51,268 bases of DNA from positions 1 to 51,268 of IMG/VR virus record IMGVR_UViG_3300045242_000078; one strand, written 5' to 3'. Below the pieces are notes generated by a model. It did no database searches, had not been told where the DNA came from, and saw only the letters and a program-made list of their open reading frames with translations. The DNA is from a virus. The translations under genes and the position numbers were made by a program. Shown here piece by piece: positions 1,729-50,403 of the stretch. Position 1 is the first letter of the stretch, and each line of letters starts with the position of its first letter.

Positions 1729-3269
1729 TTCTCGAACCACTTCCCGTCGCGCTTGACGTAATCCTTGCTGTTGATGGTTTTAGTTTCTTCGCCAGGCTTC
1801 GGGTCAGTCGCGCGCCGGTTCTTGTTGTCGCCGATTTCCTTCGTTCGTTTCAGTAAGTCCTCGCGCGCGTCGATCAAGCCGAGTTCGGCCTGATGCCCCT
1901 CAATGCGCAACTGCTGCATGGCGGCCTTGTAGACCGCAGGGGAATCAGCCGTGGCAAGCATTTTTTCTGCCTCCTGCAAGCTATGTACCGTGGGCGCCCC
2001 GCGTTGGATCAGCGCCCCGTAGGCGTTCTGGACGGCGCGGTTAGCAACAACCAGTTGCTTCTGCTCCGGGCTCCACGTGGATTCAGCGGCCTGTAGAAGC
2101 TGGTTTAGCGGCTTCCATCCGGTGCGCGCCACGGCATCTATGGCTTTTTCAGCCGGAGGGATGAACCGCTCCAGTTCCTTGTTTGCGATTGCAACGGACG
2201 CCGATTGCGTGCCAATGCGCTGCGCCTCTGCGTTGATCTCGCGCAGATGAATCTTGTTCGCCACCATATCGCTAGGGTCGCCCGTTCCCACAGTGGTCGC
2301 GGCAGAATACACGTCCCCGGAAAACTGCTTGCCGACGGTCTGAGCAAAGCGCGTTGGCAGCGGCGTGCCGGTCGAGACGATCTTCGCCCAGAAATCCACC
2401 TTCTTTTTGTACTCTGGGTCCGCGTTGTACTGCTCGCTGAGTCCGGCGGTCGCTCCGGGGCCTGCTTTTTCGTCCGCAGCCTTGCGATTGGCGGCGTTCT
2501 CGCGCGCCACCTGCTCCATTTCCTGGTCGTGGCGCTTCCGCTCGACAGCCGCATCGTGCCGCTCGCCGATCTGCGCCCGCGCCACCGTCAGCCTGTCGAT
2601 GGCCTTTTCTGTCGAACTGAGGATGGTTTCGCCTCTTTTTACCTTGTCCGACAGCGATTTCTGCTCGTGGCCAGCCGCTTTGTCGTCAAAATCGTACCTT
2701 TCCAAGATTAAATCGTGCTCCAGCGTCCACGCGGCGACGTTGTTCTTGTTTTTCCGGTCGTTTGCGGCCATGTCGCGCTGCAAAGCGGCGTTTCGTTCCT
2801 TCATCGAGGCCAAGTTCGTGTCGTAAATCTTGAGCGATTCGGCGACTTGGCGGTCATCTTCCTTCATGAAGCCGTTCATCGCCCCGGTAAGCGCCGTCAT
2901 CGTGTTGTTGTAGGGCGAGCGGGACGCCTTGCCGGCGAACATTGAGGCGACCAGCAGCATGCCGAAGGTCTTTTGAAGCTCCTGCGGGTCCAAAGCGGGC
3001 CGCTGGGAGGGTTCCATGCGTTCTTCCTTCTGGATTGGCTCGTCGGCGGCCTTGTGCGCTGCCTCTCTCAGCTTGTCCGAGGCCGGCTTTAGCTCCGCAG
3101 CGGCATCCCGCGCCCGCTGCGCACGGCTGGCCGAAAGGTCGGATTCCTGCTGCTGCAAGTCCGCAACGTCCCCCGCCTGCGCCGCGCTTTTGCCCTCCAG
3201 ATCGAAGATTCGGCGGTCAAACTGCTGCCCGAGGCCAGCAGAATCGACGGTTGCTTGGTCAAGAGCCAT
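1725..3269 (-). CDS. Putative internal virion / DNA-ejection protein, 514 aa (left haplotype, C-terminal type A)
   Basis: A mostly helical, charged protein. Residues 1 to about 236 match the copy at 43166-44740 almost exactly (QRARDAAAELKP, GMLLVASMFAGKASRSPYNN). After RAQIGER the two C-terminal parts show no recognisable relation. The type A tail carries a Gln/Ala-rich helical region and ends in DYVKRDGKWFEK, a C-terminal sequence style common in phage internal proteins. I chose the ATG at 3269 (MALDQ) because it has a GAGG site and is the start used by the other copy. Ejection role inferred from gene position. Confidence 0.75.
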   Translation of the reverse strand: MALDQATVDSAGLGQQFDRRIFDLEGKSAAQAGDVADLQQQESDLSASRAQRARDAAAELKPASDKLREAAHKAADEPIQKEERMEPSQRPALDPQELQKTFGMLLVASMFAGKASRSPYNNTMTALTGAMNGFMKEDDRQVAESLKIYDTNLASMKERNAALQRDMAANDRKNKNNVAAWTLEHDLILERYDFDDKAAGHEQKSLSDKVKRGETILSSTEKAIDRLTVARAQIGERHDAAVERKRHDQEMEQVARENAANRKAADEKAGPGATAGLSEQYNADPEYKKKVDFWAKIVSTGTPLPTRFAQTVGKQFSGDVYSAATTVGTGDPSDMVANKIHLREINAEAQRIGTQSASVAIANKELERFIPPAEKAIDAVARTGWKPLNQLLQAAESTWSPEQKQLVVANRAVQNAYGALIQRGAPTVHSLQEAEKMLATADSPAVYKAAMQQLRIEGHQAELGLIDAREDLLKRTKEIGDNKNRRATDPKPGEETKTINSKDYVKRDGKWFEK

Positions 3270-3279
3270 GATTTTCGCC

Positions 3280-4848
3280 TCATTTCGTCGTGGCAACGCC
3301 GGATTGAGTGGCCGGCAGTCGGGCGCCGAGCGTGCCCAACATCGTCATGAAGTCGGTCAACGCCTTCGCCGCCGCTTGATCCCCTGCAATCTGCGCCTTG
3401 ATCGCCTCAACCTGGGTGTTGTCGGTCAGGTTCAGTTCGTTCAGGCCCTGGGTGAGCAGGTTTTGCCGCGCCTGCTCGGTCTGCGCGTCGGCTTGCTGGT
3501 TGATGTTGGCGATCGTGCCCTGCAACTGGCTGCTATCGGGGATGCCCGCTTTCGCGTAGAAATCGTTCGCCCGGTTGATCGCCGCCTGCTTGGTCTGCTG
3601 GATGTTGAAGGCGTCGGCGGCGTTGATCGTCCCGGCCTTGTACTGGGCGAGCAACTGATTGGCGATATCGCGCTGCGGTCCGCCTAGTGACTTTATCTCG
3701 TCGAAGTACTTATTCGCGTTGCTGCTCGATGTCGCCAAACCGGCCAGCCCGCCGATGGCCGGGGCGAGCTTCAGGAGGTCGCTCGCATTGCTTGGCAAGC
3801 CGGGAACGCCTGAACTTGGCGCCCCAGGAGCGCCGCTGATCGGGTTTCCGAATAAATCCGTGTTCGTATCGGTGCCCGGCGCAACGTCGGATAGGGGCGT
3901 GTCCGAAGGCGCCTGATGCACGGTATTGAACGATCCGCCTTGCTGGTTGATGAAGTCCTGAGCGGTGCCGAGTTCGGCCGGCTGGTTTGCGCCGCTACCG
4001 ACCAGAGATTTAGCCGCAGCCGCGGTCGATGCGCCGGCGGCGGTCGTCTGGAGTGGCGACAGACCGGACCCGCCGGCGGTAGGAGTAGCAGGCGCCGTCG
4101 GCGCAGTCGGGGCGGTTCCGGCTGGAGGACCTGGCGCGGTCGGCGCCGGCGATGCAGCCGGAGGCGTGGGCGCCGTTTCAGGCAGCACGGCGCCAGGCGC
4201 GGCGGCTTCCGGCAATGCCGAGGGCAAGCCCTGCGCCGAAGCGTTGGCAGCGGTAGGGAGCCCGGCGTCGCTGGCCGCACCGGGAGCAGCTTGCGCCGCG
4301 AGCCCGCCAGCGGCACCACCGACTGCGCCCGCGGTCGCAGCGTCAAGGCCCCAATTCGCGGTATTGCCTGCGATCAACGATCCAAGCGCATCGCCACCAC
4401 CCGCCCCTACCGCATTGGCAGCCTCCAGCGTGCCGGGAGCAGCACCGAAACCTCCCGCTGCGCCAGCCGCACCGCCAAGTGCGCCCGCCGCCGCCGGCAG
4501 GAACGCCGAGCCCGCCGCCAGCCCGCCGATGATGCCGCCGACTCCTGGGCCGAACGGGTTAGCGTTGCGCGCCTGATTCGCTGAAAGCTGTTGCTGCCAC
4601 TCTGGCGTGACCTTTCCAGCGGCATCCGTGACCATGACCGGTTGACCGTCGCGCCCCGGAGCAAACGCAGGCTGCCCAGGAGGCGGAGCGTTTTGCGAAA
4701 GCGCTCCCGTAACGTCGTTCTTGTACCAGATTTGAGTGTCATCACCACCAGGAATGAACTTGTTGTCTGTGACCATCACCCATCTGCCAACAGGAGCGGC
4801 TTGCTGCACCCCGCCCGCCGTGGCCGATTGTTGAGGTAAGGTAGCCAT
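3280..4848 (-). CDS. Ala/Gly/Pro-rich virion protein, putative ejection protein, 522 aa (left haplotype)
   Basis: Residues 1-90 look folded (RWVMVTDNKFIPGGDDTQIW). About residues 95-275 are very low complexity, dominated by Ala, Gly and Pro. The last ~150 residues are helical and Gln-rich. Long Ala/Gly tracts of this type occur in podoviral pilot proteins that enter the host envelope. The copy at 44751-46310 is identical except near the C-terminus, where this one ends GVATTK and the other ends GKV. First of the three ejection candidates. Function inferred. Confidence 0.72.
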   Translation of the reverse strand: MATLPQQSATAGGVQQAAPVGRWVMVTDNKFIPGGDDTQIWYKNDVTGALSQNAPPPGQPAFAPGRDGQPVMVTDAAGKVTPEWQQQLSANQARNANPFGPGVGGIIGGLAAGSAFLPAAAGALGGAAGAAGGFGAAPGTLEAANAVGAGGGDALGSLIAGNTANWGLDAATAGAVGGAAGGLAAQAAPGAASDAGLPTAANASAQGLPSALPEAAAPGAVLPETAPTPPAASPAPTAPGPPAGTAPTAPTAPATPTAGGSGLSPLQTTAAGASTAAAAKSLVGSGANQPAELGTAQDFINQQGGSFNTVHQAPSDTPLSDVAPGTDTNTDLFGNPISGAPGAPSSGVPGLPSNASDLLKLAPAIGGLAGLATSSSNANKYFDEIKSLGGPQRDIANQLLAQYKAGTINAADAFNIQQTKQAAINRANDFYAKAGIPDSSQLQGTIANINQQADAQTEQARQNLLTQGLNELNLTDNTQVEAIKAQIAGDQAAAKALTDFMTMLGTLGARLPATQSGVATTK

Positions 4849-4857
4849 GATCTGTCC

Positions 4858-5196
4858 TTAAAGTCCGAGCGCCTGCTCGATTCTCTGATGCGCGAACGTG
4901 TGATTCTGCTGCCAGTCCTCGGCCTGCGCGCTGTCTTTCGGATCAAGCGTATCGAGGTCAACCGGTAGCGGCAGCCCGAGCGCCGTTGCAATCGAAGCGT
5001 GCACCTCGGCGTGCAAGTTCAGCCAGTCCTCGGTAATGCCGCCCGTCGTGAATAGCGGGTAATGCGCGCTCACCACCTGCAACTGCTCCATGAGGGCGCC
5101 ATAAATCGTTTCGTGCGCGAGGTCATTCAAATCCAAGAACTGCACCAGAGCACCCGCGTCCTGCATGTCGAAATCTTGCAAACTGCTCAAGTTCAT
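4858..5196 (-). CDS. Small tail-region protein, 112 aa
   Basis: An acidic, helix-rich protein beginning MNLSSLQDFDMQD, with a His-containing segment near the middle (DWLNLHAEVHASIATALGLP). It lies between the tail-fibre-like gene and the first ejection candidate, 2 nt after the preceding stop and 9 nt before the next gene. An in-frame GTG start 18 nt upstream is possible. It is identical in the second copy (46320-46658). No family recognised; probably a minor virion component or chaperone. Confidence 0.72.
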   Translation of the reverse strand: MNLSSLQDFDMQDAGALVQFLDLNDLAHETIYGALMEQLQVVSAHYPLFTTGGITEDWLNLHAEVHASIATALGLPLPVDLDTLDPKDSAQAEDWQQNHTFAHQRIEQALGL

Positions 5197-5198
5197 GG

Positions 5199-5831
5199 TC
5201 AGTAGCGATACCACGCTCTGAGTTGGTCCCCGGTCTGCGGCGTTGACGCAGCCACAAACGTAATCGTCAACCCGGCCAGGTTGTAATCTATGCCGGCAAG
5301 GTACGATGTCCCGTCCTTGTGCGTTAGCAGCAGGCTCGCCGCAGGCGTCGGCGCGTGGGCGAGCGTGAATACTTTGTTTCCTACCGTGCCCGCGCCGTTG
5401 ATGGTGCCAACTGGAGTTTCGTTATCGGCAAACTGCGGCCCGCCCGTCGCTTGTCCGACCAGCTTGTATTGTGTTCCGTCGTACACCACCGACACCACCG
5501 CGCCCGAGCGGATCGTGCCCGCGGCAATCGCGCTTCCGTCGAAGTTCGTAATCGGCACCGTGCCAGTACCATAGGCATTGAGCGTGGAGGCCCCGGTGTT
5601 GGTCGTCGCCGCGAGGAATTGAATCGCAAGCCCCGCCGCGAGCACCGCCGTCACGCCGACAGGCAGGCTCACGATGTACACGTTCGCAGCGCCGGTATCG
5701 ACCAGATAATTGCCGAACGTATTCGTGCTCGCAATCGCCGCTTTGAGCGCCGCGAAATTCGCATCCAGTTGAACGAGGCTCCAGGGTGCCGAGAGGTTCG
5801 CAAAGGTGGTGATCGTTACTGGTGCTGGCAT
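5199..5831 (-). CDS. Tail-fibre-like structural protein, 210 aa
   Basis: It begins with a short segment containing LDANFAAL, a motif frequent at the start of phage tail-fibre proteins. A beta-rich domain follows (about residues 45-130) of the kind found in many phage fibres (LNAYGTGTVPITNFDG, SVVYDGTQYKLV). The C-terminal domain of about 70 residues ends TGDQLRAWYRY. There is no receptor-binding or enzymatic region, so it may be a short fibre, an adaptor or a head-proximal piece. Identical copy at 46661-47293. Confidence 0.75.
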   Translation of the reverse strand: MPAPVTITTFANLSAPWSLVQLDANFAALKAAIASTNTFGNYLVDTGAANVYIVSLPVGVTAVLAAGLAIQFLAATTNTGASTLNAYGTGTVPITNFDGSAIAAGTIRSGAVVSVVYDGTQYKLVGQATGGPQFADNETPVGTINGAGTVGNKVFTLAHAPTPAASLLLTHKDGTSYLAGIDYNLAGLTITFVAASTPQTGDQLRAWYRY

Positions 5832-5841
5832 GGTGAATTCT

Positions 5842-7371
5842 CTACTGTGCGCGAGTCGCCCAATCCGTCGAGCGGCTGTATTGCGTCAAGAACCCTTCGA
5901 CGATGTACGCGGGAGAACTGGACGTCATCGTGAATCCAAGATATCGACCCTTGAACTCCGCGTCGCCCTGGAAAATGTTGAAGCCAGAAAATATCCAGTC
6001 CCCGGTGACCAGCGCCGCATTGATCCACTCGCCCAACTGCCCGGCGGCGTTGAACCATTGCCCGGTGTTCGTTGCCGAGAGCATCACTGGCACGGTGCCG
6101 AAGTCGGAATCGAGCGACAAGCTCAACCAGAAAGGATGTGCAACCGTGGTGACTTCGACCCCGGCCTTTTGGCCTTCCTTCATGCGCGTGGGCTCTTTCA
6201 TTGGCCAGAGCGCCGTCTGAATCTTGGTGTCAATCGGCGCCGTGGTATCTGAAAAGAGCTTGTAGATGTTCGTGCCGTCCGTGCCAAAGAGCGCCGTTTT
6301 CTCCGCCTGGAAGCCGCCCGCAATGAGGGTGAGCGCGTCGCCTTGGCTGGCGAGGAACCACTTGTCATTGAAAAGAATCGCTAGAAGCGCCCGCTCGCCG
6401 CGCGCGGCATCGTTATAGCGAAACAGAAACGCGAGACACAAAATCTGGTAGATGTTCGCCGGCCCCCCTGAAACTAAGTCCTGATAAACCAAGTCCCGAA
6501 ATACGCCGTCCAGCTTGTCTGAGATTTTCTGCGGCGTCGCGCCGTTGAGCACATAGAAGCCGCTATCGGTGACGAACGCTACAAGCCGGTAGTAGGCGAA
6601 AATCGACATGCGCTGCGTCGATCCGATCAGGGCGGAAATGTTCGTGTTGGAAAAAAGCGTCGGCGTCGGCGTGCCGGTGCCCAAGCGCACGTCCGACACG
6701 ATGTTGAACGACGTGTTCCCCGCGATGTAGATAAAATTATTCGCCGTGAAAAGCGCCGTGATGTTCGAATGCAGCGTTTCGTCGGTGACGATGAAGGTGC
6801 CGCCCGAGCTCGCCGTGGTGAAGTCCTGATAGCTGTTCGGACCTGAGAACGTGATCGTGCGCAGGAACCCGACCCACACGCGGCCCGCGTAGGTGGCGAT
6901 GGTCGCGCCGAACGCAGGCGCCCCGGTGATTGAGGCGAGCACCACAAGCCCGCCGATAGGGTCCCAACTCCAGTATCCGTTCGCAGCAACGATCAGCGCG
7001 CGCTCGTTTTTCCACTGCGCGATTGAGACTTGCCCGACGAACGTGCCGCCCGCCGCTATCACGGTCACGGCGAACGTGGCGAGGTTCAACGCGTGCCCGC
7101 CGCCGCCCACGTTGAAGCACAATTGAAAATCCACGTTGCCGATATTCGCGTACTTCCAATAGTTGATGGTCACCGCCGGAATCGTCGCAACCAGCGTCGG
7201 CGCAGGAATGCAGCGCAGGTTCGCATACCCGACCGGCATCACGTTTTCAAGCCAGGAGAATTCTTTCTCGTCAATCGCCGTGCGCTGCGCCTGCGTGTTG
7301 ATGCCGGCGAAGTCCTTTACGCTCAGGTCTTGATCTAGCGTTTCAGCAGCGAGTGCGCGCGCGTTCACCAT
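5842..7371 (-). CDS. Large tail hub/tube structural protein, 509 aa
   Basis: A 509-aa, beta-strand-rich protein with repeated Gly/Asn/Thr blades (YAGRVWVGFLRTITFSGPN, NNFIYIAGNTSFNIVSDV), consistent with a propeller-like tail-tube or hub protein. Its place directly after the head-tail adaptor candidate (7373-8224) matches the tail tubular B or stabilisation-protein position of podoviruses. The ATG at 7371 begins MVNARALAAETLDQDLSV. Identical in the second copy (47304-48833). Assigned from size, composition and order, not from a confirmed family match. Confidence 0.7.
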   Translation of the reverse strand: MVNARALAAETLDQDLSVKDFAGINTQAQRTAIDEKEFSWLENVMPVGYANLRCIPAPTLVATIPAVTINYWKYANIGNVDFQLCFNVGGGGHALNLATFAVTVIAAGGTFVGQVSIAQWKNERALIVAANGYWSWDPIGGLVVLASITGAPAFGATIATYAGRVWVGFLRTITFSGPNSYQDFTTASSGGTFIVTDETLHSNITALFTANNFIYIAGNTSFNIVSDVRLGTGTPTPTLFSNTNISALIGSTQRMSIFAYYRLVAFVTDSGFYVLNGATPQKISDKLDGVFRDLVYQDLVSGGPANIYQILCLAFLFRYNDAARGERALLAILFNDKWFLASQGDALTLIAGGFQAEKTALFGTDGTNIYKLFSDTTAPIDTKIQTALWPMKEPTRMKEGQKAGVEVTTVAHPFWLSLSLDSDFGTVPVMLSATNTGQWFNAAGQLGEWINAALVTGDWIFSGFNIFQGDAEFKGRYLGFTMTSSSPAYIVEGFLTQYSRSTDWATRAQ

Positions 7372-7372
7372 G

Positions 7373-8224
7373 TCACGAAACCGCGTAAGGGTGTTTCAGG
7401 CGACGCGTGTACGCCGAGTTGATCGCCTTGATGACTTCATTGTTGTAGCGTTGGTAAAACATCTCGGCTTCGCTCCACTTCTGCGCCTTGATCTTCGCCA
7501 AGTGCGCCGCGAAATACTGCACCGGGTCTTGCATCACAATCGGAATCACTTCCAGACTCGTGTTATCCACGAGCGGCGGCGGCTGCTGCACCGAATCGAA
7601 GTCCGCCTTGTACGCCTGATCCGGGATGCGCGCGATGTACGTTTGCGTGTAGCCGTAGATGGAAAAGACAACGGGCCTGCCGGGGGTTCCGACAAAACTG
7701 CGCGCGAGCGCGTTGAAGGTGGACCAGTCCCGGTAGGCAAGCACGATGCGCGAATTGCCCGAGTACACCGTGAGGTTTACGCAGTCAATCGTGCTCGAAT
7801 TGATGAAGTAGGCGGTTGCCGCGGAGCCGGTTCCGGGCCCGCCGAAACTAACCGCGGGCGTGCTCGCGTACAGCGTCCCCGGATTCGTCACCACGATGTC
7901 CGTCACCGCGCCCCCCGTGACTGTGGCAACGGCAGTCGCGGTTACACCGCCGGTCACTCCCGGTCCGGCGATGGTGACGGCGGGCGCGGTGACGTAGCCG
8001 GTACCGGGCGATGTGATCTGGAAGCCCGTCACGGAACCGAATGGGTAAACCTCAACGCCAGTCGATAGGTAGAGCGTCTGGAGCAGACGGTTGCAGCCGG
8101 TATCGCGGACTACGCGCGTGCGGGCGGCGTTTACGTAGTCGCCGATCTCCGCGACGCTCGTAAACTGTCCAGCTGCGTCGTGCAGGAGCCTTTGGACTTG
8201 GATTACGTACTGGTTTAGCGCCAT
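7373..8224 (-). CDS. Head-tail adaptor / tail tubular A-like protein with inserted Gly-rich beta repeats, 283 aa
   Basis: The first ~50 residues are helical (YVIQVQRLLHDAAGQFTSVA, DYVNAARTRVVRDTGCNRLL), as in podoviral head-tail adaptors. The C-terminal ~130 residues return to a folded, mixed composition. Between them, about residues 60-140, lies a Gly/Thr/Val-rich insert with GTGYVTAPAVTIAGPG and GTLYASTPAVSFGGPG repeats. The same repeat style fills the 369-aa protein at 8942-10051, suggesting a shared surface module. Identical in the second copy. Confidence 0.72.
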   Translation of the reverse strand: MALNQYVIQVQRLLHDAAGQFTSVAEIGDYVNAARTRVVRDTGCNRLLQTLYLSTGVEVYPFGSVTGFQITSPGTGYVTAPAVTIAGPGVTGGVTATAVATVTGGAVTDIVVTNPGTLYASTPAVSFGGPGTGSAATAYFINSSTIDCVNLTVYSGNSRIVLAYRDWSTFNALARSFVGTPGRPVVFSIYGYTQTYIARIPDQAYKADFDSVQQPPPLVDNTSLEVIPIVMQDPVQYFAAHLAKIKAQKWSEAEMFYQRYNNEVIKAINSAYTRRLKHPYAVS

Positions 8225-8236
8225 TGCGCGGGCTTG

Positions 8237-8650
8237 TTAGCCCGCTTGCGCTTGCCGAGCGGCTGCGAGCTTCTGAAGTGGACCGACCCTGCCGTTAGCT
8301 ACTCCCGGCGCGGGGTAGGCAGTCATCCCCGCGCCGGTTTCGTCATCACCAGCCGGGACGGAGGGGCCGGAGATTAGTTGATGCGCGCGCGCCTCTTTTT
8401 CTGACATATGGAAGGAGAATTGCCCGAGCCGTTCCAGCGCCTTCGGCATGTCGTCCAGCGTGAAGGCGAGCCCGAGCCGGCGGATGACGCGCGTCTTGTC
8501 CTCTTCGCCAAAGCCCAAGCAGAGTTCGGCGGTTTCGACCAGCATCTCTTCGACACCGCCCGCCGGAATCGTGAAGTCCTCGCCGTTGTAGCGGTCGCGG
8601 AAAGGTTTGTCGCCGTGGTTCGCAACGAACACGGTTTGCTGTCGGATCAT
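8237..8650 (-). CDS. Small head-region protein, 137 aa (left haplotype)
   Basis: The folded N-terminal part (FRDRYNGEDFTIPAGGVEEM) is followed by a Pro/Gly/Ala-rich C-terminal tail. The ATG at 8650 overlaps the stop of the Tad2-like gene (ATGA). A TTG 15 nt upstream is also open but would overlap more. The copy at 49699-50112 differs at a few residues between positions 1 and 100 only; the divergence boundary at 8375/8376 falls inside this gene. Probably a minor head or tail completion protein. No family recognised. Confidence 0.72.
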   Translation of the reverse strand: MIRQQTVFVANHGDKPFRDRYNGEDFTIPAGGVEEMLVETAELCLGFGEEDKTRVIRRLGLAFTLDDMPKALERLGQFSFHMSEKEARAHQLISGPSVPAGDDETGAGMTAYPAPGVANGRVGPLQKLAAARQAQAG

Positions 8651-8913
8651 GATGCGAGTTCCCAATCGGTAGCGAGCAAATCAGTTTGGGAACACAGCCA
8701 CGGAACGATGTCCCCGGTTGCCGTTTTCATATCCACGTGAGCGTGATAGGTGACTTCTGTTCCTACCGGATAGATGCCGAGCAACGGAGGGCGGTTGACT
8801 TCAAACTTGCTGCCAGGAACAAGGAACAGGAACATGTTTTTTCCGTTCCACCCGGAACGCGCCACGCGAGCGCCGTCTTGCATCTGCTTCACCGCCCACC
8901 CGATGCCGTTCAT
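8647..8913 (-). CDS. Tad2-like (DUF2829) protein, candidate Thoeris anti-defence (left haplotype)
   Basis: The 88-aa protein matches the DUF2829/Tad2 family over its full length. Visible hallmarks are ARSGWNGKNMFLFLVPGS at residues 18-35, NRPPLLG, YHAHVDMKTATGDIVPWL and a terminal DLLATDWEL. Known family members such as Tad2 of Bacillus phages bind the cyclic ADP-ribose signal made by Thoeris TIR proteins and so block NADase activation. It sits in the virion operon between the Gly-rich fibre-like gene and the 137-aa gene, an odd place for an early anti-defence factor. Family membership is clear; activity in this phage is inferred. Confidence 0.85.
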   Translation of the reverse strand: MNGIGWAVKQMQDGARVARSGWNGKNMFLFLVPGSKFEVNRPPLLGIYPVGTEVTYHAHVDMKTATGDIVPWLCSQTDLLATDWELAS

Positions 8914-8941
8914 AGTCTGCCCCTTCGATCCACGTGGAACC

Positions 8942-10051
8942 TTACAGCGGCAGCAGGTACGACAGGTCAGACGCCGCGCCGCCGACGGTCTGCGCCACGA
9001 TCGTCACAGCGGCGGAAATCGTGCCGTTAGAATCGCTCGCATATGCAATGCCGGTCGGAATGATTTGGTGCAGCCCGCCATCCAGGAAGGTGACGCCGCC
9101 GCCCACCGTCGTATTAAACGCGGTGTAGGCAGGACGAGGAACGAAAAGCCCCGTGGTGATCGCCGGATTCGTGTTGATGGATTGCGCCGTCGCAAGTGCG
9201 CCAATGGCGAATCCGATGTTGCCGGCACCGAGGTTCGATGCCGCTGTCTGCGCAACGCCCGTCGTGATCGTGAAGCACATGATCGCGGTTGCAGCCGGGG
9301 TGCCAGTAGTGGGCGCAAAGGTGAACGTCGGCACGGAAGTCATGCCCGCGCCGTTGTTCGCCTGCGTGAGCGCCGTATAGCCGCCGGAGCCTGCCAAGGT
9401 CGCATTGACCGTCAGCACGCCGCCCGTGCCCGTTGTGTCGCCCGGCGCGCGCGTGACTGTGACCGGAGGCGCTACCGTGTAGCCTGCGCCCTGGTTCGTC
9501 ACCGTGACCGCGTTGATCGCGCCGGCGGACACCGTGCAGAACGCCGTCGCCGGGACGCCGCCAAGCGGAGGCGGTCCGATCTGGAGCACGGGCGCGCGCG
9601 TGTAGCCAGTACCGCCCGCCGTAATGGCGATGGTCGTATTGATCGCACCGCCCACGATCGCGTTCACCGTTGCGACGATCGATCCGCCGGCGGCGGACAT
9701 CGTAACGGTCGGGCTCGCCGCCGTGCCGTTCCCCGTGCCTGCCGGATAGATGCCGTTCGTTAGGCCGGAACCCGCTGTAGTCAGAGACGCCCCGACCATC
9801 GTCCCGGTCAGGTTCGCAAGCCGCCAGTTCGCCCCGTCGCTCGATACGATCGTGCCCGCCGACTGCGCAGGGGTCGTCAGCACGCGCCAAACTTGCGTCG
9901 CCGCGTCCCACCATTGGAGGAACGTGTAGAGGCCCGGAAGCACCTGATACTGCCCCGAGGGGACCATGAACAACTGCCCCGAGGTCAGGTTGACGGTTAC
10001 AGGCGTGTGGCCTTGGTCGTAGGCGCCGGCCCCCATGCGATTAATTGCCAT
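8942..10051 (-). CDS. Gly/Thr-rich beta-repeat surface or head-fibre protein, 369 aa (left haplotype)
   Basis: After an N-terminal ~90 residues (VNLTSGQLFMVPSGQYQVLP, FLQWWDAATQVWRVL) the protein is built of Gly/Thr/Ala-rich segments with recurring GxGYTxAPxVxI units (GGTGYTRAPVLQIGPP, GAGYTVAPPVTVTRAP). The C-terminus (GVTFLDGGLHQIIPTGIAYA) looks like a separate domain. It lies directly downstream of the capsid gene and its HNH neighbour, so a capsid decoration or head-fibre role is plausible. The incomplete second copy at 50404-51268 differs by scattered substitutions. Confidence 0.7.
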   Translation of the reverse strand: MAINRMGAGAYDQGHTPVTVNLTSGQLFMVPSGQYQVLPGLYTFLQWWDAATQVWRVLTTPAQSAGTIVSSDGANWRLANLTGTMVGASLTTAGSGLTNGIYPAGTGNGTAASPTVTMSAAGGSIVATVNAIVGGAINTTIAITAGGTGYTRAPVLQIGPPPLGGVPATAFCTVSAGAINAVTVTNQGAGYTVAPPVTVTRAPGDTTGTGGVLTVNATLAGSGGYTALTQANNGAGMTSVPTFTFAPTTGTPAATAIMCFTITTGVAQTAASNLGAGNIGFAIGALATAQSINTNPAITTGLFVPRPAYTAFNTTVGGGVTFLDGGLHQIIPTGIAYASDSNGTISAAVTIVAQTVGGAASDLSYLLPL

Positions 10052-10060
10052 CGTGTTCTC

Positions 10061-10546
10061 CTAGATGTGAGCCCAGTTACGGCCTTTTTTCACGTACCAA
10101 ACGGCAGTGATTGAGACGCCGAACTTTTCTGCCATAGACTTCAACGTAAGATTGCTGTCCCTGATGAAATGCACATCGGCTTCGGTCAGTTTCGTCTTGT
10201 TGTTGTCTGGACCGCGGCGACCGATACTGCCGTACATTCCGTGTTTCTCACGCTTCGCGCCACGCCCGCGCATTTCACGATCTCGCGTGTTGTCTTGCGT
10301 AGTGCCGAGATAAAGGTGATGCGGGTTCACGCACGCTTCAACGTCGCAACGATGAAGCACCCACTTCTGAGGCGGAATTGGTCCGTTGAAAAGCGTGTAG
10401 GAAAGACGGTGCGTAGACAAATCCTTCTGCGTCTCGGTATCCCAGATACGACCGTATCCGGTGTCGTTCATTGCGCCCATCCATATCCAGCAACCGCTTT
10501 CGGTTACTGGTTCAACAAGCGCGAGGAATTGGTCTTTCGAGATCAT
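10061..10546 (-). CDS. HNH homing endonuclease downstream of the capsid gene, 161 aa
   Basis: The N-terminal region holds GCWIWMGAMNDTGYGRI and the HNH core THRLSYTLFNG then HRCDVEACVNPHHLYLGT (Cys/His near residues 70-90). This is the HNH_3 style of phage free-standing homing nucleases. The C-terminal ~50 residues form an AP2/NUMOD-like helix-turn-helix (KLTEADVHFIRDSNLTLKSM). The ATG at 10546 overlaps the capsid stop (ATGA). The ORF upstream of this ATG is low-GC and lies inside the capsid gene, so I start here. Probably selfish DNA next to the capsid gene. Confidence 0.88.
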   Translation of the reverse strand: MISKDQFLALVEPVTESGCWIWMGAMNDTGYGRIWDTETQKDLSTHRLSYTLFNGPIPPQKWVLHRCDVEACVNPHHLYLGTTQDNTRDREMRGRGAKREKHGMYGSIGRRGPDNNKTKLTEADVHFIRDSNLTLKSMAEKFGVSITAVWYVKKGRNWAHI

Positions 10547-11637
10547 AATGTTAACGAATTGAACCCAGATATGCGGGTTGATGCTTTTGGTTTTACATTT
10601 GCTAACTCCAAAATGCAAACCAATGCACCCACATATCCCAATTGGAAGTTGCTAATTGTACTTTCAAAACCTGTGAACGCGAAGCTTCCCATTACATGCA
10701 CATACAGATTGATATAGTTAGAATTCTGCAAATACACGATGCCTTCGGGACAGTACTGGTCAGCGTAGATCGGAACGCCGCACACCATGAGCGCATCAAA
10801 CCCGGAGCGCGGCCCGTCGCCTGATCCGTCGAAGCCGGTGCCCGGCGTGATGACGTACTGCTCTTGGCCCTGATAATCCTGCGCGAGCAGCGCCCAGGTG
10901 CCAAAGCCGCACACGCCGAAACTCGGTTTCTCGCCGCCGTTCTTTGCCGTGCCAGCGATGTACTGCAAGAGTGCTTGCCGCGTCGGGTTGCCGGTTGCGG
11001 CGTACACCTTCGACTGCCACCACACGTTTTGCGTGCGGTTGATGTTGCCGTAGGTCACCATGTTGGTGCCGTCGTCAATCGCGCCGGGAAAGCCGATCAG
11101 CGCCTGCAAGTTCGTCGTGTTGTTGAATAGCGCGGTTGAAAACACGTCCATGACTACGTTCCCGGCGTCGTTCATCTTCGCCTCGATCTTCGGAATGATC
11201 GCGTGATCGAGTTGCAGGATGCCTTCCATCCCGAGGAACGGAATAGGCACGATGAAGAGTTTCAGATTCCCCTCGAAGAGGAACGCGCCCTGCAAGTCGG
11301 ACGGCTGATTGAACGCGCCGTCGTAGCCTGACCATTGACCGGTGACAAACGGGGCACCCTGCACCGGGACACTGATGGAACTGACGCCACCGTAAGCGGG
11401 CTGCGCTCCGGCAAGTAGGGACGCCATCGTGGGCGAGTTGTTGTAGATTTGGACTACGAGGCGGGGAATGAACGCCCTTCTCGTAATTGCGGTTAACTCC
11501 CCTCCAACGCCTACCCCTGGGACGATTCCTGTACCAAATACGACGGTTTGCATTAAACCCACGCGCATCATGTATTGCGTGATTGCGAAATACGCCGGTT
11601 CAAACAGCCACGTCAAAAAGTTGAGGAAGCGATTCAT
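10543..11637 (-). CDS. Major capsid protein, 364 aa
   Basis: The HNH-flanked 364-aa protein follows the scaffold-like gene. It has the length and composition of HK97-fold capsids: a helical N-arm containing ITRRAFIPRLVVQIYNNSP (residues 51-69), a beta-rich middle (VPVQGAPFVTGQWSGYDGAF) and a folded C-terminal half. I start at the ATG on 11637, which has GAGTCTCGC upstream and begins MNRFLNFLTWLFEP. Short hydrophobic stretches occur near the N-terminus. Capsid identity rests on position, size and the N-arm pattern. Confidence 0.8.
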   Translation of the reverse strand: MNRFLNFLTWLFEPAYFAITQYMMRVGLMQTVVFGTGIVPGVGVGGELTAITRRAFIPRLVVQIYNNSPTMASLLAGAQPAYGGVSSISVPVQGAPFVTGQWSGYDGAFNQPSDLQGAFLFEGNLKLFIVPIPFLGMEGILQLDHAIIPKIEAKMNDAGNVVMDVFSTALFNNTTNLQALIGFPGAIDDGTNMVTYGNINRTQNVWWQSKVYAATGNPTRQALLQYIAGTAKNGGEKPSFGVCGFGTWALLAQDYQGQEQYVITPGTGFDGSGDGPRSGFDALMVCGVPIYADQYCPEGIVYLQNSNYINLYVHVMGSFAFTGFESTISNFQLGYVGALVCILELANVKPKASTRISGFNSLTL

Positions 11638-11647
11638 GCGAGACTCC

Positions 11648-12268
11648 TTATCCCAAGGCAAAGCCGGCCGCAACTTCATGCGCGGTGAAAAGAGAACTGG
11701 GAATCGAAACGCCGTATTGTTGCAGCAGAGTCGATGCCCAAGCTAGTTTGTCCTCAACTCTCTGCCCGTAGGGTTGGGATTTGCTCCACAGTTCTAGATT
11801 GGAAATTGAATTGTCGGCGCGGTCGCCGTTCTTGTGGTGAACGGTTTCGTGAGGAAGCAGCGGCCTTCCCAGAATCTTCGCCATGATGACGCGATGTTCC
11901 TTGACGATCTTCCCGTCGATGGCTTTTCGTTTGTAGCCGTTCGAATCCAAGGTGAATGGTTCTGCCCTTCTGAAAATAGTTCTGCATGCATAAGAACAGA
12001 AATTTGAGTCCTTGAACATCTTGAATTGGGAACTGTAGCGCGTGTACAACTTGCCGCACACTTTGCAGTTTTTGCTTACAGATTCCTGGCCGTTCCTGCA
12101 TGCCCTAGAGCAATACCTTGCGGGTTCTGCGCGGTGCGCCGGAACAGAAAATTCAGATTTGCAGCCGAGACATATTTTTTTGACCGCGGTCGATGGCGTG
12201 CCACGCGGTTTGCGCTTCATCTTTTCGAGCGCCGCAGCGCGCCGCTCCGGGTCTTTTGGCATTGTCAT
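11648..12268 (-). CDS. Zinc-finger HNH homing endonuclease between scaffold and capsid genes, 206 aa
   Basis: Two CxxC zinc knuckles are visible near the N-terminus ([10 protein letters not shown] ... YCSRACRNG and NCKVCGKLY ... [10 protein letters not shown]). The C-terminal half carries an HNH core ([20 protein letters not shown], then [17 protein letters not shown]). This combination is typical of free-standing phage HNH nucleases. It lies 2 nt after the scaffold stop and 11 nt before the capsid start, so it splits an otherwise compact head operon. Likely a mobile gene that spreads by cutting cognate capsid-region DNA. Confidence 0.88.
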
Positions 12269-12269
12269 A

Positions 12270-12830
12270 TCAGTGCGTCCTTGCGGCTTTGGCGCGGTCT
12301 TTCCTTATCTCGTCCATCGCGCGCATAGCTTCTGCGCGCGCCGTCCCAATCGGGTCTTTCATGAACGCCTTGCCGAGGTCTCCCTGACCAAGCTCGAACC
12401 CTTGCTGGTGCGACGTCGACGGCGTGGGCTCTGCTGCTTCCTGCTCGATTGCGCGCTGCATCGCGGCTTTCGTGAGGCCGGTCTGCGTCGTCATGAAGCC
12501 GTTCTCGCTTGCCCACTTCACGAGATCGGAGAATGACGCGCGCGTGCTGACGTGCCCGGCATCGCGCAAGTTCTCGTAGAGGTTGCTCGCTTCGCGCTCG
12601 GCGTCGGACATCTGCCCGCGCTTCTCCAGTTCCTCGATACGTTTGTCGCGCGCCGAGAGCGCGGCCACGGTCTTGTCCTCGAGCTCAACAATCGGCATGG
12701 AAATGTTCGGATTGTTCTTTTTGACGAGACGCTGAAACACGCCTGCGGTGTCGGGTTTGGAGAGCACGTCATCGGCGAGCGCTGCGAGCGCGCGTATCTC
12801 CTCATCCGTTTTACCTTCCAAGGGGGGCAT
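12270..12830 (-). CDS. Scaffold-like head protein, 186 aa
   Basis: A charged, helical protein with no strongly hydrophobic part. It has a central coiled-coil region ([20 protein letters not shown]) and a basic C-terminus ([13 protein letters not shown]), as in podoviral capsid scaffolds whose basic tail binds the coat. It precedes the capsid gene, separated only by the HNH gene. A role as scaffold is inferred from position and composition. The start ATG at 12830 begins [15 protein letters not shown]. Confidence 0.7.
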
Positions 12831-15069: not shown

Positions 15070-16743
15070 CTATTTGACAGATGCCAGAGGCGGCTTCGGC
15101 GCGGCTTTCTGCGCCTCCATCGCCATTTTCTGCTGCGCGGCCTTGGCCTCTGCCGGTTCGATGATCTCTTTCAGTTCGCGCAAAATCGCCTCTTCTGCCG
15201 GCGGCGAGTTGAGCATAATGTACCGCTCGCGCGTGATGGCTCTCGCCTTGAGTAGCCGGTCGCTCAACAACTGCGACCCCTCTTGGAAGATCGGGCTGTT
15301 GCTGTGCGCGTCCACGCCCACGGTGAAGTTTGGCGACATTTCCGCCGGAATGAACGGCACATCGTTATCGTCGTACAGTTCCTCGGTCGTCCCCACGTAC
15401 AGGCATTTCCCGAACAGCGTTGCGGACTGATCAAGCGAGTCCTCGATAATCATCGCGCGCTTTTTCGGCCGCGCCGTGCCCACCGTCAGGAGCTTGCCCG
15501 CGTGCCCCGCCGAGCGAACGCCAGATTCGCCCCTGCCCTGCACCACGTTGGACAATCCCGATACCGTGTCCATGTAATCCTGATAGCGCGCGAGGCTGGC
15601 GTAGATGTGCTCCGGGATGTTCGGCACGAAAGTCTCGCGGCGGAAGTTGGGATCGCCGATTGCCACGTTCGCGCCGGGCGAATTGAATGCGTCCATCTTG
15701 TCGGGTAGCCCCATGCCGCCCCAGGCAGAAGGCGGATCCACCTGCTTTTGTTCCAGCCGTTCGATGTCGATCATTCGCTCGTTCAGCTTGTTCTGGATCG
15801 GCGTCAGCTTGGAGACTTCCGACTGTCCCCAGAAATAGTCTGGCAGCGGGTTCGGGCAGACCTGGACAAAGCCGTGCTCGCCTTCGAAGTCCTTGGAGCG
15901 CGGCAGGAAAATGTTCTTGCGGTCGAACACGATCGCCTGCTCGCCTGCCATCGTGCAGACCTGGTAATCATCTTGGGAATCGTCCCAGACGTAGATTTCC
16001 TGCATCTCAATGACGGGAACAGCAAGCTGCGCGGCGTAGTCGGCGATGGTGCCGATATTCACGTTCACTTCGCCCTGGAGGCTCTGCAAGCCTTCGCCGG
16101 GGATGCCCGAAGTCAGGAGGATGCGATCCAACATCGGCGGCGTTGACGACGCGGTATCCTTTTTGGTATAGGCGTCCGTGGCCGCTTTCAGGATTTCCTC
16201 GCGCTTCGGGTGCAGGCTGATGCGCTTCGCAAGGTCGGATTTCGTCATGTAGTACACATGGACGAACGCTTCCTGCCGGTCGAGCATGGGCACGTCGTCG
16301 CGGTACACGCCGAAACAGGCCGGGTCGATGACGTAGGGGTCCACGCGGCCATTCCTGCGCCGGATGTGCTTGACGAGCGTCGTGTCGTACACCATCGACC
16401 ACAGGATCGCCATTTGCATAATGACGTCGGCGTTCGCCTTCTTCCACTCTTCCATTACCAGCTTGCCAAAGGCGCCGGTGCGCTTGCGGTCGGACTTCGG
16501 GGCGTGACTTCCCATCGTGACACTGAACCGCGTCGAATCGCTGGCGTAGAGGAATGACGTGACGGTGTCGAGGTGACTGTAGAGCAGATTCCACGGCGAC
16601 GGTGCGCCGTCTGACGTGCCGTAGAAGTAATAGGCCCTATTCAGAGTGTACTGTTCCAATCGCGTCTGGCGCGAGGACATGCACACACGCGACACCTCTT
16701 GCCAAAAATCGAGACGCGCCGCGTCCTGGTGCGGGATACGCAT
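15070..16743 (-). CDS. Portal protein, 557 aa
   Basis: The 557-aa length, position between terminase and capsid, and features such as MRIPHQDAARLDFWQEVSRV, FLYASDSTRFSVTMGS, an extended middle with LNERMIDIERLEQKQVDPPS and the helical C-terminus fit a podoviral portal. It would form the dodecameric DNA gate at the capsid vertex. The start overlaps the stop of the zinc-ribbon gene by TAATG. Assigned from context and composition. Confidence 0.8.
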   Translation of the reverse strand: MRIPHQDAARLDFWQEVSRVCMSSRQTRLEQYTLNRAYYFYGTSDGAPSPWNLLYSHLDTVTSFLYASDSTRFSVTMGSHAPKSDRKRTGAFGKLVMEEWKKANADVIMQMAILWSMVYDTTLVKHIRRRNGRVDPYVIDPACFGVYRDDVPMLDRQEAFVHVYYMTKSDLAKRISLHPKREEILKAATDAYTKKDTASSTPPMLDRILLTSGIPGEGLQSLQGEVNVNIGTIADYAAQLAVPVIEMQEIYVWDDSQDDYQVCTMAGEQAIVFDRKNIFLPRSKDFEGEHGFVQVCPNPLPDYFWGQSEVSKLTPIQNKLNERMIDIERLEQKQVDPPSAWGGMGLPDKMDAFNSPGANVAIGDPNFRRETFVPNIPEHIYASLARYQDYMDTVSGLSNVVQGRGESGVRSAGHAGKLLTVGTARPKKRAMIIEDSLDQSATLFGKCLYVGTTEELYDDNDVPFIPAEMSPNFTVGVDAHSNSPIFQEGSQLLSDRLLKARAITRERYIMLNSPPAEEAILRELKEIIEPAEAKAAQQKMAMEAQKAAPKPPLASVK

Positions 16744-17240: not shown

Positions 17241-17621
17241 CTATTTGTTCACCGGCGGCAACACCGGAAAGGCAGCCTTGTTCACGGCAACCCAGTCGAG
17301 CACCGGCCCCCTGTCCGTCATCCTGATCCGCGTCAGCATCGTCTGCTCCGGCAGCGGATCCTCGTACACCGTGATCTCGTAGGTGCCGCGCGCCTTGCTT
17401 ACCCGACGCGCTTCCACCTGCCCGTTTTCCAGCAGCGTGAACGCGCGATCTAACCGGCGGTACGTCTCCCGGTACATACCCTCGAATTCCTTGGCGTATC
17501 GCCACCAGTGACCGGGGCCGATTCCGCTTACCTTCTCAAGGATCGCAAGCGAGAATGGCCGCTCCTTCGCCGGCATGGCGATCAGGGCGCGCAGTCTTCG
17601 TTTGCATTCCTCTCTTGTCAC
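17241..17621 (-). CDS. Unknown packaging-region protein, 126 aa
   Basis: Begins MTREECKRRLRALIAMPAKE using GTG at 17621 that overlaps the terminase stop. The centre is basic and helical (KVSGIGPGHWWRYAKEFEGM) and the C-terminal half is beta-rich (YEITVYEDPLPEQTMLTRIR). Its position downstream of the large terminase could suit a packaging accessory. It is not recognisably a small terminase subunit. Confidence 0.7.
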   Translation of the reverse strand: MTREECKRRLRALIAMPAKERPFSLAILEKVSGIGPGHWWRYAKEFEGMYRETYRRLDRAFTLLENGQVEARRVSKARGTYEITVYEDPLPEQTMLTRIRMTDRGPVLDWVAVNKAAFPVLPPVNK

Positions 17622-19423
17622 TTGTTCACTCCGTACCGTATGCCCACTTTCTCCATGTACCCCCCGACCGTGCTCCTCAGCGTACTCTCAACCGGCGTCT
17701 CCGCTCGGCCCGTGATCGCCACCTTCGCCCGCTTGTCGGCTTCCTTCGCCCAGGTGAGGCCCATCTGCTTTAGCTTCATGATGAAGTAGCGCACGTGGTT
17801 CTCCGCCGCAATCGCAGACGCCACCGTGCAGTCATCGTGCCCGCGGCCAGAGGCGCCAAGGAAGCCGTCTTTCTCGCGCACGATGATTTTCATTTCGTCG
17901 GCGAGCAACTTGGAGTGCAGCACGGCATGCCCCTTATCGACCAGATCGCGGAAGGTGTTGAAACAGCGGTCCTTGGTCTCGGCTGAAGTTTTCCAGGCGT
18001 ACACACCGCCTCCGAATGGGCTATCGAGCCTTCGATACAGGAAGTAGCGCATATGCCCGACCACATCGCGCAGTGCCTTTCCCTGCGGCGAAGCGCCCAT
18101 AATAGCCGCCTGCCGCCGCAGGTTGTCGATTTCCCCGAGCACCGCTTCCCCCGGCCCGTTGATCTCAAGGTTGACCATCGAATTGCGGTAGCACCCGGCG
18201 ATGTAGCAAATCACCCACGCGAACTTGTACGTGGTGATTTCTGGCGTGCAGAATTCCGCCACCTGCTCGAAGCGATCGGCGTAGCAGCGGTACACTTCGA
18301 CCACGCTTCTATCCGCCCAATGCGCGCTGCCGTAGGCTGGATCCGCGCCAATCGAATAGAAGGCCGTATCGTCTGGCTGCTCCCAGATGCGAAGATGCGC
18401 CGTGCGCTCGGGACATTCCTCCACCACCGTCTGCATGAAGTCAGAACCGAAGCCAAAGCGCAGGCATTCGACGGGCGCGGGTTCCGCCTCGATCGCAGTC
18501 GCAATGTCGTGCACGCGCGTCAGGCTGAAAAAGTTTTTTCCCGTGAGGATGAAGGCCATCTCCGACGTCCAGGGCATTTCTTGTCTGGCGTAATCTTGGT
18601 CGTGAAGTTTTTCCGCAACGATCCAGCGCCACCACGCTATTTGCTCCGGTACGATGTCGAAGTCGTATTGCAACTTGACCGCTTGAGCCCACTCGTGTTC
18701 GTTGCTGGTTAGTTTTCCATCCCAATAGACTTCATATTCATTGGAATCTTTTTCTTTGCGGTATAGTTCATTGCGCCACCATCCTATGAAGATCGCTCGT
18801 TGCGTTACGGCATCTTCTGCTTCTACAAACATTTCGTGAAACAAATTAAAGCCGCGTGCAGTCGATTCCCACATCGCAAAGCGCAGCGGGTTTATTTCTG
18901 CAAGCGAAGACTGAATTGATGCAAGCGATTCTTCATCTTCCCAAGAACTGCACTCGGTTGCGTGAATGAAGGTGATGCCTTTGCCGCGTCCCTTACCGCC
19001 TTTTCGTTTCACACCGCCGCCAATCTGCATGAACATGCGTGATCCGTTTTCAAATTCGAGCATGTTGCGATTGTTGGTAAGTAACCTGAGACGGTGCGTA
19101 CGCGGCAGCCCATTGTGGAACTGCGTTAGAGTCGAGCGGAACATATCCTTATTCTCTTCCCCATCCGAGGCGAGCGTGCCCTGCATCCCCGTATACTCAT
19201 AGTGCCAAAACAAGTCAATTGCTAACTGAATGGTAGTCACCCCGAGTTGGCGAGCTTTGCAGCAAACGAAAGAATGAATGTCGTCCTCAAGCCCTCTCAC
19301 AACCTCTTGCAACAGATATTCTTGCGTGCCAAGCAATTTGTCCAGCGTGATTACGCCCTGCTCCTTGGAACTAACGGAGAGTTGATTGCAAAAAGCGCGG
19401 AACCTGCGTATGTCGAACTTCAC
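17618..19423 (-). CDS. Terminase large subunit, 601 aa
   Basis: The DNA-packaging ATPase-nuclease. Walker A variant CKARQLGVTT lies at residues 55-64 and a Walker B-like ITFIHATECSSW at 150-161 with Glu157. The RNase H-like nuclease begins YSIGADPAYG with Asp361, and GRGHDDCTVASA near the C-terminus supplies later acidic residues. I use GTG at 19423, which overlaps the HNH stop (GTGA), since the frame upstream lies inside the HNH gene. Middle codons (18700-19400) are more AT-rich than the ends, perhaps a recombination trace. Confidence 0.9.
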   Translation of the reverse strand: MKFDIRRFRAFCNQLSVSSKEQGVITLDKLLGTQEYLLQEVVRGLEDDIHSFVCCKARQLGVTTIQLAIDLFWHYEYTGMQGTLASDGEENKDMFRSTLTQFHNGLPRTHRLRLLTNNRNMLEFENGSRMFMQIGGGVKRKGGKGRGKGITFIHATECSSWEDEESLASIQSSLAEINPLRFAMWESTARGFNLFHEMFVEAEDAVTQRAIFIGWWRNELYRKEKDSNEYEVYWDGKLTSNEHEWAQAVKLQYDFDIVPEQIAWWRWIVAEKLHDQDYARQEMPWTSEMAFILTGKNFFSLTRVHDIATAIEAEPAPVECLRFGFGSDFMQTVVEECPERTAHLRIWEQPDDTAFYSIGADPAYGSAHWADRSVVEVYRCYADRFEQVAEFCTPEITTYKFAWVICYIAGCYRNSMVNLEINGPGEAVLGEIDNLRRQAAIMGASPQGKALRDVVGHMRYFLYRRLDSPFGGGVYAWKTSAETKDRCFNTFRDLVDKGHAVLHSKLLADEMKIIVREKDGFLGASGRGHDDCTVASAIAAENHVRYFIMKLKQMGLTWAKEADKRAKVAITGRAETPVESTLRSTVGGYMEKVGIRYGVNK

Positions 19424-19977
19424 GCGGACGCTATGAGCGATTGAACGAACACGGAAAAATCCTTTGTGTGTTTTCTGGAGTTGCAAGACTTGCACAGCAA
19501 TTGAATGTTGCTAATGTCATTACTTCCGCCGTTTGCCATCGCAACAATGTGATCGGCTGACGGATTGCGCGTGATGTCGCAGCCGCACGCGTTGCACTTA
19601 CCATCCTGCTCTATCATCATGGACTTCAGTTGCGCCGCTGTATGCTTTCCGTTTACACCCTTGAGGAGAGCGCGACGATTGCGTGTGTACGCGGCCCTCT
19701 CTGCCGGATGCTCTTGCAAATACTTCTTGGATCTTGCTAGAAAAAATTGGTGGCGTGACAGTCTGTTCTTTTTTCGATGCGCCTTTACCTTTTCTGGGTT
19801 TTTGATATTCCACTTCTTTTTTGAGAGCGCATGTATTCCCGGATTGGCCTTGTTTCGAACACGAGCGTACTCGTTGTGGCAAGGCTTGCACATTTTATGC
19901 AAACCGTCCTTCGTCGCGCGATTGATTCCGAACGCGGATTCGTCAAATTCCTTCTTGCAGGACCAGCAGACTTTCAT
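19420..19977 (-). CDS. HNH endonuclease upstream of terminase, 185 aa
   Basis: An N-terminal zinc finger (CWSCKKEFDES ... MCKPCHNEY), a basic middle and a C-terminal HNH core (CNACGCDITRNPSADHIVAM, then LLCKSCNSRKHTK). It overlaps both neighbours by 4 nt, so it has been fitted into the operon rather than dropped between genes. HNH proteins beside terminases may aid packaging in long-tailed phages, but the zinc-finger build here resembles homing nucleases. Low GC compared with flanking genes. Confidence 0.88.
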   Translation of the reverse strand: MKVCWSCKKEFDESAFGINRATKDGLHKMCKPCHNEYARVRNKANPGIHALSKKKWNIKNPEKVKAHRKKNRLSRHQFFLARSKKYLQEHPAERAAYTRNRRALLKGVNGKHTAAQLKSMMIEQDGKCNACGCDITRNPSADHIVAMANGGSNDISNIQLLCKSCNSRKHTKDFSVFVQSLIASA

Positions 19978-41500: not shown

Positions 41501-41741
41501 GGTTCACCTCCTGAGCGCGCCCGGATTCTGCTTTGATACTGGGAATGAATACGAACAGCGCCAAGACTAAACAAATTGCCGCCCCGACGTGACTCTCATT
41601 ATAGACGGAATAGGCCGAGAGCGCGATGATGCCAAAGAGCGCGGTCAGGCTCAGTATCCGACTCGCCATCATTTGCACGCCGAGACGTCCGAAACGAACG
41701 AGGGCTGAAATGTCCGGTACGCCGATGTCATTCATGTTCAT
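41487..41741 (-). CDS. Two-helix membrane protein, 84 aa (right haplotype)
   Basis: Same length and ribosome site (GGAGG, six bases) as 34-288. The core helix is unchanged; differences cluster at residues 11-24 and the C-terminal tail. Confidence 0.8.
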   Translation of the reverse strand: MNMNDIGVPDISALVRFGRLGVQMMASRILSLTALFGIIALSAYSVYNESHVGAAICLVLALFVFIPSIKAESGRAQEVNHEQP

Positions 41742-41970
41742 TGTCTTCCTCCTTCTGCTTGAAAAACTCTCCGGCACTGTCGTCTTGCTGCACGTTCAGA
41801 CGGATGGACTCGATCTTAATCATGCGGTCAATGATCTTGCAGCGCTCGCTCAAAGAGTACGCCGGCTGCTCGCCCTCCTTCGGTTTCGCCATCACCTCTT
41901 CCATCAAATCCTTGATCGCCTTGACGAGCTTCGGATCCACGCCCTTCGACTTCGCCTTCGGCTTGGTCAT
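41728..41970 (-). CDS. Small charged conserved phage protein, 80 aa (right haplotype)
   Basis: One residue shorter than 272-517. SIRLNVQQDDSAGEFF is unchanged, while helix positions such as ELMEEVMAKPKEGEQPAYSL-like stretches vary. Overlaps the next gene by ATGA. Confidence 0.8.
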   Translation of the reverse strand: MTKPKAKSKGVDPKLVKAIKDLMEEVMAKPKEGEQPAYSLSERCKIIDRMIKIESIRLNVQQDDSAGEFFKQKEEDNEHE

Positions 41971-44740: not shown

Positions 44741-44750
44741 GATTTTCGCC

Positions 44751-46310: not shown

Positions 46311-46319
46311 GATCTGTCC

Positions 46320-46658
46320 TTAAAGTCCGAGCGCCTGCTCGATTCTCTGATGCGCGAACGTGTGATTCTGCTGCCAGTCCTCGGCCTGCGCGCTGTCTTT
46401 CGGATCAAGCGTATCGAGGTCAACCGGTAGCGGCAGCCCGAGCGCCGTTGCAATCGAAGCGTGCACCTCGGCGTGCAAGTTCAGCCAGTCCTCGGTAATG
46501 CCGCCCGTCGTGAATAGCGGGTAATGCGCGCTCACCACCTGCAACTGCTCCATGAGGGCGCCATAAATCGTTTCGTGCGCGAGGTCATTCAAATCCAAGA
46601 ACTGCACCAGAGCACCCGCGTCCTGCATGTCGAAATCTTGCAAACTGCTCAAGTTCAT
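46320..46658 (-). CDS. Small tail-region protein, 112 aa (second copy)
   Basis: Same protein as 4858-5196, without differences. Confidence 0.72.
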   Translation of the reverse strand: MNLSSLQDFDMQDAGALVQFLDLNDLAHETIYGALMEQLQVVSAHYPLFTTGGITEDWLNLHAEVHASIATALGLPLPVDLDTLDPKDSAQAEDWQQNHTFAHQRIEQALGL

Positions 46659-46660
46659 GG

Positions 46661-47293: not shown

Positions 47294-47303
47294 GGTGAAT
47301 TCT

Positions 47304-48833: not shown

Positions 48834-48834
48834 G

Positions 48835-49686: not shown

Positions 49687-49698
49687 TGCGCGGGCTTG

Positions 49699-50375: not shown

Positions 50376-50403
50376 AGTTTGCCCCTTCGATCCACGTGGA
50401 ACC

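Follow-up and report, generated by a model that had tools for sequence, protein, structure and literature searches.

The window analysed here, i.e., the whole stretch of 51,268 nucleotides of IMG/VR virus record IMGVR_UViG_3300045242_000078, contains on its minus strand a gene for a Tad2-like protein of 88 aa (positions 8647-8913; allele A, haplotype 1; Pfam PF11195, 82 bits). The other haplotype contributes a further copy of this gene (50109-50375, likewise minus), which is 94% identical on the amino acid level. An earlier note on this DNA had placed the gene correctly, leaving its strand unsaid, and had also rightly ascribed it to both haplotypes: positions 44028-51268 repeat positions 2557-9806 at 96.5%. 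A further part (41597-43055) matches positions 141-1602 at 87%. Since the end of the record repeats its beginning, the sequence is best read as a circularly permuted genome of around 41.46 kb, whose assembly ran on beyond the start and joined two variants. Genes within 4858-8224 are fully identical in both copies, whereas both sides of this stretch differ strongly at synonymous sites, which suggests a collapsed or recombined assembly. Concerning the Tad2-like gene itself, the variable positions, estimated at about five in the earlier note, are exactly five on the protein level (Q10E, N26G, V50P, V54I, T82I), compared with around 20 synonymous codon differences. The gene is under purifying selection (dN/dS 0.04-0.08), with a dN/dS of 0.076 between the two copies, similar to that of the neighbouring virion genes, and of 0.044 in comparison with the relative L084, within the range of these neighbours.

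The gene is situated among virion genes, as had been noted before. Upstream lies the gene of an Ig-like virion protein (369 aa, 8942-10051, minus; weak similarity to PHROGs of head closure, tail fibre and virion structural proteins), and the gap of 28 bp between both genes is occupied by a leader (8914-8941, minus; delimited by junction alignment) with a Shine-Dalgarno-like AAGGGG. Downstream, a small late gene (8237-8650, minus; 137 aa when counted from its ATG) begins within the Tad2 stop codon, the overlap reading ATGA, and is followed by a SU10-type head-tail adaptor (283 aa, 7373-8224, minus; PF24175, 36 bits). The major head protein (378 aa, 10543-11679, minus; phrog_9953 major head protein, E 2e-25), a portal-type head-tail adaptor (15070-16743) and the large terminase (17618-19495) were identified in the surroundings as well. 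No promoter-like site was found on the minus strand in 7300-12400, and terminator-like sites occur at chance level. Considering the short upstream gap, the result of the promoter search and the stop-start overlap, co-transcription of the Tad2-like gene with the late genes would be the simplest reading.

Some further observations concern this late region. HNH endonuclease genes flank the major head protein gene on both sides (10061-10618 and 11648-12268, minus); the related records L084 and L085 lack both at this place, and L086 possesses the upstream one. In genome assemblies, relatives of the major head protein turned up on seven MAG contigs assigned to different phyla, which are probably misbinned and point to no particular host. 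A late protein of 593 aa (39126-40907, minus) exhibits at residues 407-580 a match to GDSL lipases/acylhydrolases just under the threshold, and is perhaps a tail-borne esterase.

The assignment of the 88-aa protein to the Tad2 family, put forward in the earlier note as a full-length DUF2829/Tad2 match, was confirmed by sequence, fold and invariant residues. Residues 4-86 align to positions 3-72 of the 73 positions of the PF11195 profile (E 3.8e-23, 82.2 bits versus a cut-off of 25). A phmmer search against the PDB returned exclusively Tad2 or AcrIIA7/HgmTad2 proteins, with ModTad2 at the top (59.7 bits), followed by SptTad2, SPO1 Tad2 (50.8 bits) and HgmTad2/AcrIIA7; PADLOC and NCBIfam gave no match for the protein. 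The comparison of a predicted structure with Tad2, which the earlier note had proposed, points in the same direction: the single-chain AlphaFold2 model, built from 55 relatives, reaches a pLDDT of 95.1, and all 24 structures found by Foldseek at E < 0.001 are members of the Tad2 family, with TM values reaching 0.86 by target length, the next match having an E-value of around 1. The 24 structures include ModTad2 in complex with His-ADPR and SPO1 Tad2 in complex with gcADPR. All 16 residues that are invariant in ModTad2, SptTad2, SPO1 Tad2, HgmTad2 and the allele of the sibling record L086 are present (among them R19, W22, N23, G24, K25, M27, F28, W72, D78, D83 and W84), these positions being defined by invariance among solved ligand-binding Tad2 proteins and not by ligand contact. 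None of the five differences between the haplotypes falls on them. Judged from sequence and model, the product of 8647-8913 is thus a Tad2-family member with the predicted ordinary fold of this family.

A chance or misframed open reading frame at 8647-8913 is ruled out by the Pfam, PDB and dN/dS results. Other arrangements of the domain exist: one open frame of another record (L037:7728-8489) matches the Tad2 profile twice, at residues 38-63 and separately at 90-174, and perhaps represents a tandem or partly duplicated Tad2 domain, and in Vibrio phage MAR10 (L269:3161-3946) as well as in PHROGs 1048, 872 and 30130 the Tad2 domain forms the C-terminus of larger proteins whose N-terminal part is uncharacterised.

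Four IMG/VR records (L083, L084, L085 and L086) share with the window a late protein of 509 aa at 95-97% identity, and the Ig-like protein is kept in all four at 92-95%. The slot compared among them is bounded by the Ig-like gene on one side and the small late gene on the other, the flanking virion proteins being 91-98% identical among the records. In L084 (the same contig as L003) the slot contains the same Tad2 (94% identity), in L086 it contains a Tad2 of another subfamily (44% identity), and in L083 and L085 it contains none, the flanking virion proteins being kept there at 91-97%. The empty slot is exact to the base: the leader TAAGGTTCCACGTGGAATATAGGGGCAGACT runs straight into ATGATCCG of the late gene, whereas in the filled slot the same leader precedes Tad2, whose stop codon contains the beginning of the late gene. 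L085 (record G052) is a complete circular genome with an end repeat of 127 bp and 41,047 unique bases, and no PF11195 match was found anywhere in it; large parts of the replication and early region have no match to that of the window. As ATGA is present at both ends of the gene, a deletion through microhomology is possible as an alternative to a gain. The L086 allele belongs to a separate, well-supported clade (100/98) with a long branch; its core between the MF and W..SQ motifs comprises 53 residues, its best PDB matches are SptTad2 and then HgmTad2, and its structure model is of low confidence (pLDDT 67). The first 41 nucleotides of this allele are nevertheless identical to allele A of L084, as expected if the gene body had been replaced by recombination.

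Because the slot of these siblings holds either allele A, the other allele or nothing, Tad2 is most likely dispensable, exchangeable anti-defence cargo rather than a component of the virus particle. The position in the operon and the stop-start coupling to the next late gene could also be explained if the Tad2 fold had been recruited for the structure or the assembly of the virion, a role that the earlier note had considered. For such a component, conservation together with the virion module would be predicted; instead, two siblings, of which one is a complete genome, lack the gene exactly to the base, a third has a 44%-identical allele of another subfamily in its place, and all residues common to the solved ligand-binding Tad2 proteins are kept. 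We therefore regard a structural role as highly improbable.

Concerning the placement of Tad2 in other phages, only one (L003) of the 80 surveyed IMG/VR loci with close Tad2 relatives uses the same slot as the window. In more distant phage relatives (L007, L008, L025, L049, L054), Tad2 is situated near the terminase, and elsewhere, in other phages, among replication, lysis-edge, DNA-modification or unassigned genes. The distance was measured to the terminase, as the PF05065 capsid profile matched in only 2 of 50 records. A terminase could be recognised in 20 records; in nine of these, Tad2 is on the same strand at a distance of up to 3 kb, versus 3.4 expected if genes were placed at random and a generous strand bias was allowed for (p ~0.0016), and in 12 the distance is up to 10 kb (p ~0.03). 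These values are suggestive only, since the test was selected with the data already in view and several of the records represent related phages. In two further records (G018 and G024, found with PF03237), Tad2 lies within 1 kb of the terminase. The late position is consequently not exceptional, relatives within the clade being often located beside the terminase and Klebsiella phages carrying a capsid-adjacent Tad2 (see below); capsid adjacency recurs, but it is not a rule.

These varied places, together with the empty slots of siblings with 91-97% identical flanking virion proteins, also bear on the packaging suggested in the earlier note, by which Tad2 would be injected from the virion and protect at once. 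The one feature that points to packaging is the position between virion genes; conservation with the virion module, which packaging would predict as well, was not observed, and no fusion to a virion protein is present in the window. Moreover, Tad2 sequesters its signal stoichiometrically, in proportion to its concentration (PMC12043709), such that a few packaged copies would provide little capacity. Packaging is therefore unsupported and, for a protein acting in this way, very unlikely.

The earlier note had further described Tad2 as a sponge of cyclic ADP-ribose. The assignment to a family of sponges stands, whereas the ligand was specified too narrowly: the best PDB match, ModTad2, was solved with His-ADPR, reported as the signal of type II Thoeris (PMC13299392). 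Membership in the Tad2 family does not fix the ligand, since SPO1 Tad2 does not bind 3'3'-cGAMP (PMC11722364) and some other Tad2 proteins bind cyclic dinucleotides (PMC12043709), as in the structure of SptTad2 with cGG (PDB 8wjd). It is accordingly conceivable, albeit rather unlikely, that the main target lies outside Thoeris, e.g., a cyclic dinucleotide of CBASS or another nucleotide; the clade of the window possesses a strongly conserved central loop of its own (about PPLLGIYPEGTEIxYHAHVDM), which would be compatible with a different target. However, cyclic dinucleotides are bound via a long insertion between beta2 and beta5 (PMC12043709), and this mark of the respective subgroup is lacking in the 88-aa protein: its core between the MF and W..SQ motifs comprises 43 residues, similar to SPO1 Tad2 and ModTad2 (41 each) and unlike the cores of SptTad2 (53) and HgmTad2 (59). 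Owing to this short core and to the lack of 3'3'-cGAMP binding by SPO1 Tad2, a Thoeris-type signal would be the more likely ligand. His-ADPR or an isomer of cADPR would be the candidates, but as the protein is only around 40% identical to the solved Tad2 proteins, with a central loop unlike that of any of them, the ligand could be another nucleotide.

Taken as a whole, we consider it probable that a Tad2-family sponge is carried in the late (capsid) operon of this tailed phage as optional and exchangeable cargo, acting inside the cell and being co-expressed with the capsid protein. It would most likely be transcribed together with the major head protein and Ig-like genes, making use of a leader that belongs to the next late gene where Tad2 is absent, and would be coupled to this gene by the ATGA overlap. 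Tad2 is a homotetramer with pockets between the protomers; the 88-aa protein would be expected to assemble in this manner in the infected cell, and the tetramer would sequester an ADP-ribose-type signal of a Thoeris system. In staphylococci, newly made major head protein is both necessary and sufficient for Thoeris activation (PMC12578639). Because newly made capsid protein can trigger Thoeris TIR proteins, a sponge encoded in the capsid operon would be delivered with the trigger, appearing alongside it and in high amount, such that packaging would not be needed; co-expression with the trigger would thus explain the late position.

The protein itself is one more Tad2, but its surroundings add a natural experiment, in which a late-operon Tad2 is optional and replaceable by another subfamily in one slot of nearly identical virion modules. 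Such a base-exact optional slot with a swapped type of sponge is new here. As the capsid protein is a proven trigger of Thoeris, a testable reason is given for the placement of a counter-defence gene among late virion genes, and small accessory genes of late operons are suggested as a pool to be screened for anti-defence candidates. More tentatively, slots in capsid operons might constitute exchange sites for signal sponges, with independent capsid-adjacent, stop-start-coupled Tad2 insertions, exact to the base, in unrelated phages, the antidote being made together with the trigger, and the allele type (short-core or long-core) being swapped according to the alarm molecule of the host; we regard this as possible, with the odds rather against it.

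Among the solved Tad2 proteins, ModTad2 from a Myroides odoratus prophage (PDB 8v3e, 9eib; inhibitor of type II Thoeris, reportedly via binding of His-ADPR, PMC13299392) is the most similar one (identity around 41%, TM 0.79-0.86 by target length), sharing with the window protein a core of similar length and the RxGWNGKxM and DxLAxDW-type motifs. It differs in the sequence of the central loop, as the PPLLGIYP-GTE-YHAHVDM block belongs to the clade of the window, and the tree does not firmly group the two. SPO1 Tad2 (gp34.65; PDB 8sme, 8smf, 8smg), a sponge reported to block type I Thoeris through binding of gcADPR (PMC13299392), agrees in family, fold and short core (identity around 40%), whereas its match is weaker (50.8 versus 59.7 bits for ModTad2; TM 0.64-0.74 by query length) and its branch in the tree is long. 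SptTad2 and HgmTad2/AcrIIA7 (PDB 8wjd, 8kbi-8kbm, 9kzr) are of the same family and fold as well, but bind cADPR isomers and cyclic dinucleotides and possess the long central insertion. A Tad2-like protein reported as nearest to the Myroides Tad2, P015 of Sinorhizobium phage AP-20-A, is longer (97 aa) and stems from a rhizobiophage; a presence/absence comparison was not found in the accessible part of its description (PMC13299392).

Concerning the gene arrangement, the closest parallel, which is new here, comes from an unrelated phage group. Around nine cultured Klebsiella phages of the genus Drulisvirus carry a Tad2-like gene directly behind the capsid gene, by annotation in KPPK108.1, KMI6 and PWKp9B and by coordinates in NKA196, NNA-G4, myPSH1235, K40PH129C1 and PWKp7; KPPK108.2 carries the identical gene. 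Most relatives lack it: the stretch from capsid to tail was matched in 298 records, with a coverage of 80% or more in 190 of these, whereas this type of Tad2 DNA turned up in only about ten of the Klebsiella records. KP-Rio/2015 exhibits an empty site that is likewise exact, and where the site is filled, the stop of Tad2 overlaps with the start of the following gene (TAATG). In some Drulisvirus phages, HNH genes also adjoin the capsid gene. The Drulisvirus insertions are independent of that in the window: equally to the latter, they are capsid-adjacent, coupled by stop and start, and optional among close relatives, whereas they belong to an unrelated podovirus lineage and encode a protein of 86 aa with another central loop, deposited as a hypothetical protein.
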